A stretch of 33,303 bases of DNA from NCBI GenBank assembly GCA_002796025.1, contig PCVQ01000004.1, forward strand, positions 1-33,303, in the 5' to 3' direction. The stretch is from Candidatus Peregrinibacteria bacterium CG11_big_fil_rev_8_21_14_0_20_46_8. GTDB taxonomy: Bacteria; Patescibacteriota; Gracilibacteria; UBA1369; UM-FILTER-53-11. Position numbers and translations under genes: made by a program. Positions 13,745-21,808 of this stretch are shown one piece after another. The first letter of the stretch is position 1; each line of letters opens with the position of its first letter. The notes beneath the pieces are model-generated. The model was not told the origin of the DNA. It did no database searches and saw only the letters and a list, made by a program, of their open reading frames with translations.

Positions 13745-13773
13745 ATTATACCAGCAAAAAGGGGATTTGTCAG
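13745..13773 (-). promoter_or_regulatory. Promoter of the CDF gene (leaderless)
   Basis: CTGACA (13768-13773), exactly 17 nt, TATAAT (13745-13750), then 8 nt to ATG 13736. It is the best full -35/-10 example of the leaderless pattern. It overlaps the last codons of the ribbon-protein gene. Confidence 0.7.
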
Positions 13774-15317
13774 CTTTGCAGATAGCACTGTTCGCAGTGG
13801 ATTATTTCTGGTCTATCCGGTGCATATGCACTCTGAATTGGCATGTTACACTTCGCACACTGCCGTTTCCAGAGCAGACGCGGCGTGCGCTGAGCAAAAC
13901 GAGCAGAGTGCCGGCACTCAGGACATTTTTGAGGGAGCGGGATATCCTGTTTTTTGTAAAAATTCAGCTCTTTTGGAAGGATCTTGTAGGCTTTAGCACA
14001 GACAATACAGCGACCGGCTTCTTGTGGTAATGTGTGCTGCGTGATTTTTGTTTTTATTTGTTGAGGAAAGTAATCTGCTGCAACTGAATCTTGGTACGAA
14101 AAAGGGGAGAGCCCCATAGGGGGAAATTCGCCGTAAGTTTTGTCGGCATGCATATCGGCAATTATTTTTGCACGCAGCGTTTCATATTCTTGTTTTGTAT
14201 ATTGTTTATTGAGAATACAATATTTTTTATTTCTGAGTCCCACACAGCCAAAAAGATTTTGTGAACTTTTGCAGAAATCTGAATATTGGCAGTCTGCGCA
14301 TTCGCCACATGTATTGCAGAATTGAATATTGTTGTTTCCATAATAGCCAATATGCTCATAACAGAGTTCAAAGTGTTCGCAGTAGTTTACATCGTATGAA
14401 TCTTTGGCATCGATGATTTGGGCACAGTAGCGAACATCTTGAGCCTTTTTTACATCAAAGCAGTCGCGGGCATTTTTTGAATTTACAATATAGTTGCCGC
14501 TTACATTTTCGTTATTTAGATTTTGTGCATATTTATGAGGGAAATTGAGTTTGAATTTTGCAAATTTCTTAAGCAGTTCATCGATTCCTTTGCGTGTATT
14601 TAGTTTCAAATCCGTTTTTATATTCTCATACTCTTGTTGAGAATAAGCCTTATTGAAAATGTAATATTTTTTATTGCGCAGCCCAATGGAGGCAATACAA
14701 TTTTGTGATCCTTTACAGTCAAAACAGGCGATTAAATCTGAAGAAGTGGAGCAATCTTGGCAGTACTGGCATGCGTAGCATTTTTCACAATCTATGCACT
14801 CATAACAGAGTTCTGATTCACGTACTAAGAAACTATCATAGCAGTCACGCGATTCGTATGGAGATCCGTACATACAGTCTTCGATATGAATAGAACCGAA
14901 GCAGAGATAGCTGTTGTGAGCAAAGCCGACGTAATTGCAGTAATCACTATTTTCGGTGTTTACCGTTGCAAGATTAAGGCGTGGCACACGCTGCAGAAGA
15001 GCATGATATTGAGCGAAAAATGATTTTGAAGGTGAATATTCTTGTCCATGCTCCTGAGGATCCCATGCATCGCTCCACCAGCAGGTTTGGCAATAGACTG
15101 GAAAAGGGTGCCCGGGCGCATACATAGAAATTATTTTTTTGCCGCACAAACCGCATGTATCGTGATACAAATTGCGTTCATTGCGCCAAGCGAGCCTTCT
15201 CTGCATGCGGCATAGCGCACACAGTGTGGGGGCCGGCACATGTATTTTTGTATAGAATGCGCGATCCGAATCATCTATAACAAATTTCTTGCTGCAATGC
15301 GCACATGTTTTTTCCAT
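13770..15317 (-). CDS. Cysteine-rich double zinc-ribbon protein (paralog 1)
   Basis: 515 residues with about 41 cysteines, function unknown. The N-terminal 80 residues hold four CxxC pairs (5-8, 33-36, 55-58, 76-79), forming two treble-clef or ribbon modules. The same spacing and flanking words recur in the last 80 residues (CIVC, CPEC, CAKC, CEQC; YAPGHP versus YAPDRP), so the module is duplicated at both ends. In between, Cys appears every 3-12 residues in short strand-like units (CYECIDCEKCYACQYCQDC), and GLRNKKYxIxNKxYxxxEYE occurs twice, suggesting an internally duplicated solenoid. There is no signal peptide or membrane segment. It is divergent from the TrmB-type regulator; a paralog lies on its far side. 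Metal storage, metal sensing or nucleic-acid binding are all possible. Confidence 0.85.
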   Translation of the reverse strand: MEKTCAHCSKKFVIDDSDRAFYTKIHVPAPTLCALCRMQRRLAWRNERNLYHDTCGLCGKKIISMYAPGHPFPVYCQTCWWSDAWDPQEHGQEYSPSKSFFAQYHALLQRVPRLNLATVNTENSDYCNYVGFAHNSYLCFGSIHIEDCMYGSPYESRDCYDSFLVRESELCYECIDCEKCYACQYCQDCSTSSDLIACFDCKGSQNCIASIGLRNKKYYIFNKAYSQQEYENIKTDLKLNTRKGIDELLKKFAKFKLNFPHKYAQNLNNENVSGNYIVNSKNARDCFDVKKAQDVRYCAQIIDAKDSYDVNYCEHFELCYEHIGYYGNNNIQFCNTCGECADCQYSDFCKSSQNLFGCVGLRNKKYCILNKQYTKQEYETLRAKIIADMHADKTYGEFPPMGLSPFSYQDSVAADYFPQQIKTKITQHTLPQEAGRCIVCAKAYKILPKELNFYKKQDIPLPQKCPECRHSARFAQRTPRLLWKRQCAKCNMPIQSAYAPDRPEIIHCEQCYLQS

Positions 15318-15356
15318 AAGGATAGTTACAAGTTCATGACAGAGGGTAGAGCGAGT

Positions 15357-15385
15357 TTGTAAGATTGTCTATATTTCAGTACAAT
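15357..15385 (+). promoter_or_regulatory. Promoter of the TrmB-type regulator
   Basis: TTGTAA (15357-15362), 17 nt, TACAAT (15380-15385). The predicted start of transcription falls at about 15392, inside the palindrome that follows. Confidence 0.55.
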
Positions 15386-15388
15386 AGT

Positions 15389-15406
15389 TGTCACTATGCT
15401 GTGACA
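15389..15406. promoter_or_regulatory. Putative operator at the regulator transcription start
   Basis: A perfect inverted repeat TGTCAC-TATGCT-GTGACA directly after the -10 box and before ATG 15412. Its position suits autorepression and, since the ribbon gene is divergent, shared control. Confidence 0.5.
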
Positions 15407-15411
15407 GCACC

Positions 15412-16200
15412 ATGATAGATATTCCCCAAAAAATTAAGCAGACACTTCGTGATTTTGGTCTCAGTAAGGCCGAAATGTATGTATACGTAAGCGCTTTGCG
15501 GCTTGGAGCGCAACCCGCCAGCGTTATTGCAAAGCATGCGCTTTTGAAGCGTGGTCATACCTATAATATGCTTACGAGCTTAAAGGAAAAGGGATTGGTG
15601 CAAGAAATGATCAAGCGTAAAATTCGGCACTTTGCAGCATGTCGCCCCGAAACTATTCTCTCTGTTTTGCTACACCGCGAAGAAAAGATAGCGCATCAAA
15701 AGGAGCAAATTGCACAAATTATTCCACTCTTGCAGTCACTCAAAAATCCCGCAGTACAGCCTGCTCGCGTCCGATTTTTTGAGGGGTCTCAAGGTATTAA
15801 AGAGATTTATGAAGATACTATTCAAAATTCAAACGAAACCATATATGCAATTGGTGACTTCGCCTGTTTTTTCCCACAAGAAAAGGATCCGGTCTTAAAC
15901 GGCTGGATTTGGAAATATTCTCAGCGGCGTGCCGCAAAGGGAATTTGGTATTACGGAATCGCAAATAAATCGAAATATTCCGATATGGCTTTTAGAAAGC
16001 GTCTAAAACAAAAACGAAAATTAAAGATGCTGAAAGATGTGGAATTGCCTGTTGAAATCAATATTTACGGCAATAAAGTAGCGGTCATGTCCACATCAAA
16101 AGAAATGATTGGTTTTATTATTGAGGATGCACCCACTGCTGAAACGCTTCGTAATTTGCATAAGGCAATTTGGGGATTTTTGCCGGACTACGCTATTTAA
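15412..16200 (+). CDS. TrmB-family transcriptional regulator
   Basis: 262 residues from ATG 15412. The N-terminal winged helix (about 5-75) has the TrmB pattern: LRDFGLSKAEMYVYVSALRL, then a recognition helix region RGHTYNMLTSLKEKGLVQEM. A coiled segment (about 85-115) follows. The C-terminal effector-like domain starts RVRFFEGSQGIKEIYEDTI and includes a Trp/Tyr-rich patch, GWIWKYSQRRAAKGIWYYGI. This domain is the type found in PLD-like TrmB regulators rather than the sugar-binding one, so the ligand is unknown. It lies between two cysteine-rich ribbon genes, divergent from one and overlapping the end of the other by 4 nt. ORF-track TTG 15388 lies between the -10 box and the palindrome and is less likely. 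Confidence 0.82.
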   Translation: MIDIPQKIKQTLRDFGLSKAEMYVYVSALRLGAQPASVIAKHALLKRGHTYNMLTSLKEKGLVQEMIKRKIRHFAACRPETILSVLLHREEKIAHQKEQIAQIIPLLQSLKNPAVQPARVRFFEGSQGIKEIYEDTIQNSNETIYAIGDFACFFPQEKDPVLNGWIWKYSQRRAAKGIWYYGIANKSKYSDMAFRKRLKQKRKLKMLKDVELPVEINIYGNKVAVMSTSKEMIGFIIEDAPTAETLRNLHKAIWGFLPDYAI

Positions 16201-17624
16201 TACACCTCGGCCAAATAGCAGGTCTCGCAATATATTGTCTCTGGCCTGTTTGGAGCGTAACTTGTTTGGATTGCTTTTTTACACTTTGCGCATTCGCGTG
16301 TCCACAGACGCCACGGCGTTCTTATTTTGTTCCGCGCATTGTGCCGGCAATCTGGGCACTGTTTTGGAACCGGAATGCGCTGTGTCCGGTAAAATTTTAA
16401 CTCTTGTGCCGTGATGCGATAGTTTTTTGCACATATTTCACACGCGCAAATGCCTTTTGTAATCTCATCGGTGACCTCATCGATACTATTCGGAATTTGC
16501 ACAGTGGCCGGCTGAAATTCTTTTGAATCCTTTGGGCGCCAGCCCCAGCCTAATTCTTTTGCTTGCCCTTCATTCAGAGGAAAATGGTCTTGTGCAATGG
16601 TTTCATTGTAATTAAATGGTGAGAGCGAGGCCGGGAAAAATTCTCCCCATTCTCCGGTTTTTTGCATATGTTCAATAATACGTGCGCACATTTTTTCGTA
16701 TTCTTCTTTTGGATACTCTTTATTGAGGATTGTATGGCGCGCTTTATGAAAGCCAACAGTTCCAAAGCAATCTTGTGCAGAGGGTGACTGTACACAATAT
16801 AGAAGATTTTTTGCACCGTTCCAGTTATATACCGAAAGTACGATCCTGTATCCGGGTACGCCAGTTACGGTATTGTAATAAGATAATTCGGCCTCTTGAA
16901 TTCCGGTGATGTCGTAGCAATCAGAAATGGGTTTATCGCCGAGTGTTATAAACTTTGAATCTTGTGCACCGTTGGTGTCAAAACTTTGCTGTACATTTTT
17001 GCAGTTTGAAAGATTTGTACCGGTCGAATTTTCACAATTTGTAATTTGTGTAGCACGCATCGGAAATTTTAAACGGTGCTCTGTAAACATTTTCTTGGCT
17101 CGCTCAAGCCCCTCATGGGTATCTAGGCGGAGTTCTGCAATTCTTTTTTCATATTCTTCTTTGCTCAACTGTTCATTAAAAAAGCAATACTGTTTACCTA
17201 TGAGGTTTACGCTCCCAAAACAGTTTTGGCAGTTGCGGCAGCCTTCACAGAAAATACAATCAATGCAGTTTGTACAGTGTGTCGAATATTTGCATCCATA
17301 ACATTTGTTCACTTCCACACATTCATAGCAAAGCTCACTGTTATACGCAGTAAGACAATCTACTGAATCCTGGCAGCTCCATATATAGCTGGAGTACTGG
17401 CAATTTTCATTATCATTGCTGGCAAATATCAGATAGCAATCTTTGTTGTTATTACAAAAATTTACATAGTCGCTGTTGTATGATTTGTCTACGAGCAAAT
17501 CCATAAGGGGAACAGATTGAATCAGTTCGCGAAGCTGTGAAAAAAATGGACGATTGAAATCAAACTCTCGTCCATAGTCGCCGGCATCCCAAGTATCGCT
17601 CCACCATGCTTCTTTCTTATACAC
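16197..17624 (-). CDS. Cysteine-rich zinc-ribbon protein (paralog 2)
   Basis: 475 residues if translated from GTG 17624, homologous to paralog 1 along its length. Shared features are WWSDTWDAGDYGREFDFN (WWSDAWDPQEHGQEYSPS in paralog 1), a central cysteine-dense solenoid (CYECVEVNKCYGCKYSTHC), two copies of the KxYxxxNKxxxxEEYEK element and a complete C-terminal ribbon pair (CEIC, CPDC, CAKC, CETC with SYAPNRPE). The homologous N-terminal ribbon lies upstream in the same open frame (next entry), so the GTG is probably not the true start. It ends 4 nt inside the regulator gene, convergently, and lies 36 nt or so downstream of nth on the same strand. Function unknown. Confidence 0.78.
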   Translation of the reverse strand: MYKKEAWWSDTWDAGDYGREFDFNRPFFSQLRELIQSVPLMDLLVDKSYNSDYVNFCNNNKDCYLIFASNDNENCQYSSYIWSCQDSVDCLTAYNSELCYECVEVNKCYGCKYSTHCTNCIDCIFCEGCRNCQNCFGSVNLIGKQYCFFNEQLSKEEYEKRIAELRLDTHEGLERAKKMFTEHRLKFPMRATQITNCENSTGTNLSNCKNVQQSFDTNGAQDSKFITLGDKPISDCYDITGIQEAELSYYNTVTGVPGYRIVLSVYNWNGAKNLLYCVQSPSAQDCFGTVGFHKARHTILNKEYPKEEYEKMCARIIEHMQKTGEWGEFFPASLSPFNYNETIAQDHFPLNEGQAKELGWGWRPKDSKEFQPATVQIPNSIDEVTDEITKGICACEICAKNYRITAQELKFYRTQRIPVPKQCPDCRHNARNKIRTPWRLWTRECAKCKKAIQTSYAPNRPETIYCETCYLAEVY

Positions 17625-17876
17625 TTTATGCGGTTTGTCCGCTGCAATCCAAGAGATGATCGGCTCGCCCGTTGCATCGCAGTTTCGCCGGTAGAGGCTT
17701 CGTTCATTTCGAAACGCAAGGCGGTTTTGCAGGCGGCAGTCCGGACACTCTTTTGGCGGCGGAATTTCAAAAACTTGCCCGGCAAACGTAGGAGAAACGC
17801 GCTTATAAAATTCTAGATCTTCATCGCCAATGTGAAACGAAGTTCTGCATCGCCGGCATGTTTGTTCTAGAGCTAT
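17625..17876 (-). other. In-frame N-terminal extension of ribbon paralog 2 without a standard start codon
   Basis: The frame stays open for 84 codons upstream of GTG 17624 and aligns with the start of paralog 1: LEQTCRRCRTSFHIGDEDLE against MEKTCAHCSKKFVIDDSDRA, then CPDCRLQNRLAFRNERSLY against CALCRMQRRLAWRNERNLY. The Met of paralog 1 aligns with CTA (17870). The nearest non-canonical starts are ATA 17876 and ATT further in; no ATG, GTG or TTG exists before 17624. The second ribbon has lost three of four cysteines (NCDAT, VYKKEAWW). Either an unusual start codon is used or the N terminus is decaying. Confidence 0.7.
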
Positions 17877-17912
17877 TGTGTTGGGGTAAAGTGCCTGTCA
17901 ATTAAACAATAT

Positions 17913-20878: not shown

Positions 20879-21808
20879 ATGAATACTACACAGAACATAA
20901 TCGGCGGAGTTGGCAGAAAATTTTTGTCAATCATTGCTATTTCAGCAATGCTCTTGTTTGCAGGAGCAATGAAAATTGCAAGTGCAGAAACAGATGTTAA
21001 TAGTGTCAATGAAAATAATATTAATGCTGAGACGAATAGTAGCGCAACCAGTGGCACCACCAATGGTACAACCAATGGCACGGTTGATGATACTACTGAT
21101 GATACCGAGTCTACCGAGACGGATAGCACGAATACTGATACTAACACCAATAACACCACTACGACCAATGGCAATAATCGCATCAATTTAGGAACAAATA
21201 GTGATAATAATTCTCAAAATATCGAAGAACTCTTTGTTTTAAAGGCGCTGTTTGATGATGAAAACGGCACGGTGAATAATACCAACATTGAAGATCTGTT
21301 TGTTTTGAAACAATTATTTGATGAGAATGGGAATGGAGGAGTTTTGAATAATGGAGGAGATAATCTAGAAGATCTTTTTGTGATTAAGGCACTGTTTGAT
21401 GATCAAAATGGAGACGGCATTTTAAACGGGAATGATAATCTAACAGATCTCATTGTGCTTCAAGCGCTATTTGATGATGATGAAAATGGAACTGGAACTG
21501 GAATCTTTAATGGAGACGATAGTAATTTAGAAGATCTTTTCATCTTATCAATTATTGATGATGACGATGGTACCGGTGACAGTGATTTAGTCGATCTTTT
21601 CGTCATCACAAAGCTGTTTGATGATGAAAATGGAACCGGAAGTGGAAATGGTCTCTTCAGTGGAGACGACAATCTAGAGGATCTTTTCATTTTGACTATC
21701 CTTGATGATGACGATGATAACGGTGGTACTGATTTAGTAGATCTTTTCGTCATTCGAGAGCTTTTCAATGATGATGAAGAGAACAATATCAATAATCTCT
21801 TAAACTAA
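20879..21808 (+). CDS. Secreted protein with eight LFVLKxLFDDxNG repeats
   Basis: 309 residues. The signal peptide with hydrophobic core FLSIIAISAMLLFAGAM is cleaved near ASAET. A Thr/Asn/Asp-rich linker (about 40-105) follows. Then come eight repeats of 20-29 residues built on NLEDLFVLKALFDDENGTGxx, with the Asp/Asn-rich loop varying in length. The clearest loop, DQNGDGILNGND followed by LTDLIVL, has the D-x-N-x-D-G-x5-D spacing of a dockerin or EF-hand calcium loop and helix. Other copies keep D/N/G content but not the full spacing. It probably binds Ca2+ at the cell surface (inference). A perfect 14-bp terminator follows. There is no membrane anchor or sorting motif, and no Cys or Trp. Confidence 0.82.
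   Translation: MNTTQNIIGGVGRKFLSIIAISAMLLFAGAMKIASAETDVNSVNENNINAETNSSATSGTTNGTTNGTVDDTTDDTESTETDSTNTDTNTNNTTTTNGNNRINLGTNSDNNSQNIEELFVLKALFDDENGTVNNTNIEDLFVLKQLFDENGNGGVLNNGGDNLEDLFVIKALFDDQNGDGILNGNDNLTDLIVLQALFDDDENGTGTGIFNGDDSNLEDLFILSIIDDDDGTGDSDLVDLFVITKLFDDENGTGSGNGLFSGDDNLEDLFILTILDDDDDNGGTDLVDLFVIRELFNDDEENNINNLLN
21211..21806 (+). repeat. Tandem coding repeats of the secreted protein
   Basis: Eight diverged units of about 60-87 nt encoding (N/D)LxDLFVLKxLFDDxNG. DNA copies share GATCTTTT(T/C) and TTTGATGATGAAAATGG words. Confidence 0.75.

Follow-up and report, generated by a model that had tools for sequence, protein, structure and literature searches.

A Patescibacteria protein family in which two homologous zinc-finger-like modules bracket a duplicated, cysteine-rich interior

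The window, i.e. the whole 33,303-nucleotide stretch of a Candidatus Peregrinibacteria contig that was analysed, contains a cysteine-rich gene (P0001), a paralog of it, and a regulator gene between the two. The first-pass annotation had correctly placed P0001 at 13770-15317; its strand is minus. The features at the locus are as follows.

13770..15317, minus strand: P0001, 515 aa (ATG at 15317, stop at 13770), with the order module (Z), interior half A1, interior half A2, module (Z-A1-A2-Z)
15072..15317, minus strand: N-terminal module, residues 1-82, with two putative zinc sites (Cys 5/8/33/36 and 55/58/76/79)
14607..14984, minus strand: interior half A1, residues 112-237, a predicted Cys-ladder solenoid with the first KKY element (14625-14675) at its end
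14163..14540, minus strand: interior half A2, residues 260-385, homolog of A1, with the second KKY element (14181-14231) at its end
13773..14021, minus strand: C-terminal module, residues 433-515, a duplicate of the N-terminal one, with putative zinc sites at Cys 437/440/465/468 and 487/490/508/511
15388..16200, plus strand: TrmB-family transcriptional regulator (36.2 bits against PF01978), divergent from and head-to-head with P0001; its first ATG, at 15412, leaves ~94 bp between the two genes (15318-15411)
16197..17867, minus strand: paralog 2 (P0003 plus an upstream N module), Z-A1-A2-Z, second N-module zinc site lost

Cysteine makes up 8% of P0001 (41 residues), and all the words quoted from its translation in the first-pass annotation are found there. 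That annotation had read the protein as a bracketed duplication, and homologous end modules do stand around an interior that is itself duplicated; judged by sequence, the bracketed duplication is confirmed as real, and is stronger than was stated at first. In the paralog 2 region (16197-17880) the N-module frame is intact, but none of the start codons ATG, GTG and TTG precedes the CxxC, and a start at the first one listed (GTG 17624) would remove the module. Translation may begin instead at an ATA or CTA close ahead of the first CxxC, or the assembly may be in error here. Elsewhere in the window, positions 20879-21808 (plus strand) encode an acidic repeat protein that starts with a hydrophobic stretch, after which NLEDLFVLKALFDDENG-like units recur.

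AlphaFold2 modelled full-length P0001 with a pLDDT of 85 and a pTM of 0.85, the first coils (residues ~120-170) being of low confidence. Predicted alone, the interior fared worse (pLDDT 69, pTM 0.55), which is consistent with terminal caps, without proving them. The predicted interior is built of 4-residue strands with 2-residue turns, or of single bridges each 3 residues. Cys-Cys lags in A1 are enriched at multiples of 3 only (top lag 12), the same 3-residue register is seen in A2 (top lag 9), and the interior cysteines fall in one register in 11/14 (p 7e-4) and 11/11 (p <1e-5) cases, the other residues in that register being mostly small or hydrophobic. These models and patterns make it likely that the interior is a beta-solenoid capped at both ends by zinc modules.

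Fold comparison returned no whole-fold match at E<=1e-3 in the PDB or among viral models, and the sole match of P0001 in a sequence search of solved structures was a LIM protein (E 0.099). The top but non-significant fold matches are hexapeptide- and pentapeptide-repeat solenoids, which are beta-solenoids as predicted for P0001, but with 6- or 5-residue rungs where P0001 has a 3-residue register and a Cys ladder. In the 12-residue coil of the beetle antifreeze proteins TmAFP/DhbAFP, residues 2, 5, 8 and 11 point inward (PMC8038014); the P0001 interior likewise would place inward residues at each third position around a Cys-rich core, a resemblance of pattern only. The low-confidence interior-only model gave E 4.8 and TMt 0.30 against 1ezg, and E 5.2 and TMt 0.40 against 1l1i. 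Unlike TmAFP, P0001 appears cytoplasmic, has two halves with zinc-finger ends, and lacks a TCT ice-binding face (no TCT occurs in P0001).

Downstream of P0001, after 27 bp and on the same strand, comes a cation-efflux (CDF) gene, for which the listed TTG start (13742) probably lies too far upstream. A near-perfect extended -10 promoter-like site (CTGACA, 17, TATAAT with TG; 13745-13773, minus strand) sits at the P0001 end, before this gene. When the neighbouring ORFs of the closest P0001 homologs were read by eye, no CDF gene was recognised among them, and these neighbours look like ordinary housekeeping genes; given this and the gene's own promoter-like site, an operon with the cation-efflux gene was dropped as a functional clue. 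The 41 cysteines and the adjoining same-strand gene could still be read as a metal or thiol store, in which the cysteines act as a metallothionein-like buffer with the cation-efflux protein as partner. We regard such a store as unlikely, since interior cysteines are freely swapped for Ser, Ala, Val, Ile and Leu in register, as core packing predicts, and since both observations on the cation-efflux gene count against a partnership.

Named records of P0001 homologs come nearly all from Patescibacteria/CPR lineages, and the family was found in 31 of 40 relatives, with a patchy distribution across the wider phylum. The P0001 host genome (1.32 Mb in 70 contigs) has about a dozen family loci. Patescibacteria genomes are ~1 Mb in size, and because several of them hold a ~550-residue family gene in about ten or more copies, full or partial, the family is probably important to these bacteria. 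Tandem arrays reach about 11 family genes, several with an internal TrmB gene (L187 in G169:C1, L111/L112 in G024:C38, L115 and L113). Phage and plasmid records gave no family match, on which ground a mobile-element or phage origin was rejected; a single-pattern viral scan of low sensitivity gave one short viral-contig match.

The regulator beside P0001 has counterparts in the relatives, where, among the matches listed, 26 of 117 TrmB genes have a family gene within 1.5 kb, where 2.2 would be expected (p 2e-20, a statistic over related genomes that are not fully independent). Most of these linked genes are divergent (21 of 26, again among the matches listed), and ten of ten tested regulators belong to PF01978. 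Individual family genes or arrays may thus be switched by a divergent TrmB-type regulator. Tandem arrays, divergent paralogs and linked regulators might also be expected of a secreted or surface-exposed variable protein, as in switched arrays of antigen families, but no hydrophobic 19-mer (signal or TM) was found at the N terminus or elsewhere in any of 164 family members, which makes surface exposure very unlikely; the family is predicted to be cytoplasmic.

The KKYxIxNKxYxxxEYE element, previously reported as present twice in the interior, indeed recurs at residues 215-231 and 363-379, but is just the C-terminal end of a duplication of ~126 residues (112-237 vs 260-385). The two halves align with a score of 182 (146 with Cys masked, against a shuffle maximum of 56), and the A1 and A2 profiles match at E 6.8e-38, or 8.9e-32 with Cys masked. 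Short forms of the family carry both halves with one module, which is either fused (L182, 432 aa; L041, 422 aa) or encoded by the next ORF (L019, 356+102 aa, in the same genome as P0001; L087, 328+91; L181, 322+119; L131, 320+96 aa). The interior tree separates A1 from A2 with a support of 99, and short and long forms occur on either side. Because this split is common to short and long forms, the interior duplication, which appears to comprise a whole solenoid half, looks older than that of the module. Two copies each of Z and A, as in P0001, could also arise by tandem duplication of a Z-A unit (Z-A1-Z-A2), after which a third module was added or the middle one relocated to the end. We give this scheme very little credence: just residues 238-259 lie between A1 and A2, without a module remnant, the short forms A1-A2-Z hold both interior halves but one module, and short and long forms have the A1/A2 split in common.

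The cysteine spacing of the two ends, first described as nearly the same, is in fact identical (CxxC-x24-CxxC-x18-CxxC-x17-CxxC at both). BLASTP aligns the ends of P0001 without gaps at 36% identity over 76 residues (57 bits), and with the 8 shared cysteines left out, 19 of 68 positions are identical against a null of 4.15 +/- 1.96 (maximum 14 in 100,000 shuffles). The Smith-Waterman score of 136 compares with 36 +/- 8 (maximum 70) for Cys-preserving shuffles, and a score of 62 with Cys masked compares with 22 +/- 4 (maximum 40). With 93 full-length relatives, the profile of the N module matches that of the C module at E 1.3e-31; masking all Cys leaves 5.8e-24. Purely Cys-driven similarity, which the first-pass annotation had named as the outcome that would speak against it, was looked for in this way, and the likeness survives both masking and Cys-preserving shuffles. 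The two modules are almost certainly homologous; that they are merely Cys-rich zinc sites of convergent spacing, as might be thought from the alignment of all eight cysteines of one end with the eight of the other in a protein so rich in Cys, has next to no chance given masked and Cys-preserving scores far outside the shuffles and the masked profile match. Neither module profile showed similarity to A1 or A2.

In a tree of the modules (82 columns only, with ~100-aa single-module proteins as outgroup, support 100/99, and modules labelled solely by their position in the protein), the N modules (25) and the C modules (25) each group in a clade of their own, supported at 100/99 and 97/99 respectively; short-form modules sit near the N/C split. 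From these clades and the split in the interior tree it follows, as far as sequence can show, that A was duplicated first and that Z underwent a single duplication, ahead of the family's radiation. The N-terminal module was probably gained by a short form A1-A2-Z, e.g. by fusion with a neighbouring stand-alone module gene. At L041 such a stand-alone gene immediately precedes a full-length family gene, which suggests fusion as a possible route to the N-terminal module.

The module itself is of a known kind, i.e. a predicted treble clef like that of zf_Tbcl/TIGR04272 proteins. In the AlphaFold2 model both modules follow treble-clef order (CxxC knuckle, beta-hairpin, helix from the second CxxC), so that the duplicated 'ribbon modules' proposed at first are indeed duplicated modules but resemble treble-clef fingers in tandem more than simple ribbons. 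The module fold matched a predicted viral protein named as a zinc ribbon (43 residues, 0.6 A, E 0.81, prob 1.00). P0001 reaches no whole-protein cut-off in Pfam or NCBIfam: its N-module stretch scored 24.0 bits against zf_Tbcl (PF13451, cut-off 24 bits) in the genome search and was unlisted by whole-protein hmmscan, and the protein scored 12.7 bits (E 0.078) against TIGR04272 (cut-off 36 bits) and 14.2 bits against zf_Tbcl_2 (PF23477, cut-off 27 bits). The CxxC-x17-CxxC spacing of TIGR04272 is present at residues 55-79 and 487-511. Among 43 family members, PF13451 matches 12 (best 6e-9) and PF23477 18 (best 1.5e-6) at E<=0.1. LIM domains (PF00412) resemble the Z module in having two successive zinc fingers in one small module, but differ in spacing, and the ligands of P0001 would all be Cys; Pfam LIM gave no match for P0001 and weak matches for 4 of the 43 relatives (best 2.9e-4).

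Shorter single-module homologs, whose comparison had been suggested with the original observation, exist both as ~100-aa zf_Tbcl/TIGR04272-type proteins, which are widespread, and as the one-module short forms. The ~100-aa proteins (PF13451 and TIGR04272/PF23477) have the P0001 module's order of two four-Cys sites with near-identical spacing (CxxC-x25-CxxC-x18-CxxC-x17-CxxC in L120), and in a PF13451 scan those of other Patescibacteria aligned over the whole module (the C profile giving the best value, E 1e-19); they are one module without a solenoid, whereas P0001 has two around A1-A2. The bracketed Z-A1-A2-Z architecture occurs in none of the domain libraries searched, and we found no paper on it, nor any on PF13451, TIGR04272 or the 'CaiB/BaiF' annotation of such proteins, in literature that included few subscription journals. 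The family is large and apparently undescribed, and the libraries searched assign it no role.

All four zinc sites are present in P0001, as in several of the proteins most closely related to it, which come from other CPR lineages. Across 148 full-length proteins, complete four-Cys sites number 123 for N1, 55 for N2, 67 for C1 and 139 for C2; 36 of the 148 retain all four and 45 just N1 and C2. Loss of N2 is nearly always all-or-none, with 0-1 Cys remaining. On a tree of 80 proteins the minimum number of changes is at least 19 for N2 and at least 20 for C1, vs 13 for N1 and 7 for C2. The inner sites (N2, C1) thus appear more dispensable, having been lost repeatedly in most members, and the outer ones are mostly retained; the repeated loss shows that most paralogs can do without the full set of four. 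A correlated loss of N2 and C1 is not claimed (Fisher 1.6e-6 without tree correction; independent pairs, median p 0.125, non-significant). Zinc binding by the modules would follow from the retained four-Cys sites and the known families.

Overall, the best explanation, and one we think somewhat probable, is a cytoplasmic Patescibacteria-family protein in which a doubled Z stands around A1-A2 to form a zinc-capped docking scaffold switched by TrmB. The modules would be tandem treble-clef zinc fingers at either end of a beta-solenoid that is rigid and has a thiol-rich core; besides capping it, they would offer two surfaces on which a macromolecule, nucleic acid or protein, could dock. The genes or arrays would be controlled by the divergently transcribed TrmB-type regulator. 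An intracellular docking scaffold is only a tentative assignment for the function of P0001 itself. More speculative still is the wider proposal of CPR-specific intracellular zinc-capped Cys-ladder beta-solenoids with two nested duplications, arranged in TrmB-switched arrays, serving redox- or metal-responsive docking and having no described equivalent. The bracketed architecture, the order of the duplications, the four-site, ancestor-like P0001 and the TrmB linkage offer handles, in zinc stoichiometry, ligand and operator, on an otherwise uncharacterised family.

A few loci depart from the family pattern. One paralog in the P0001 genome (G000:C16:53576-54838) has a single in-frame TAA and is apparently a decaying copy, and L064 comprises many family fragments, apparently also decaying. 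In a MAG labelled Bdellovibrionales, the N module and the remainder of a family member (L067) lie in two overlapping ORFs of different frames; this is probably misbinned CPR sequence, or a transfer. A distant 263-aa ORF (L184, G103:C1:792221-792637) matches the interior only (E 1e-8), and is possibly a solenoid relative without zinc modules.
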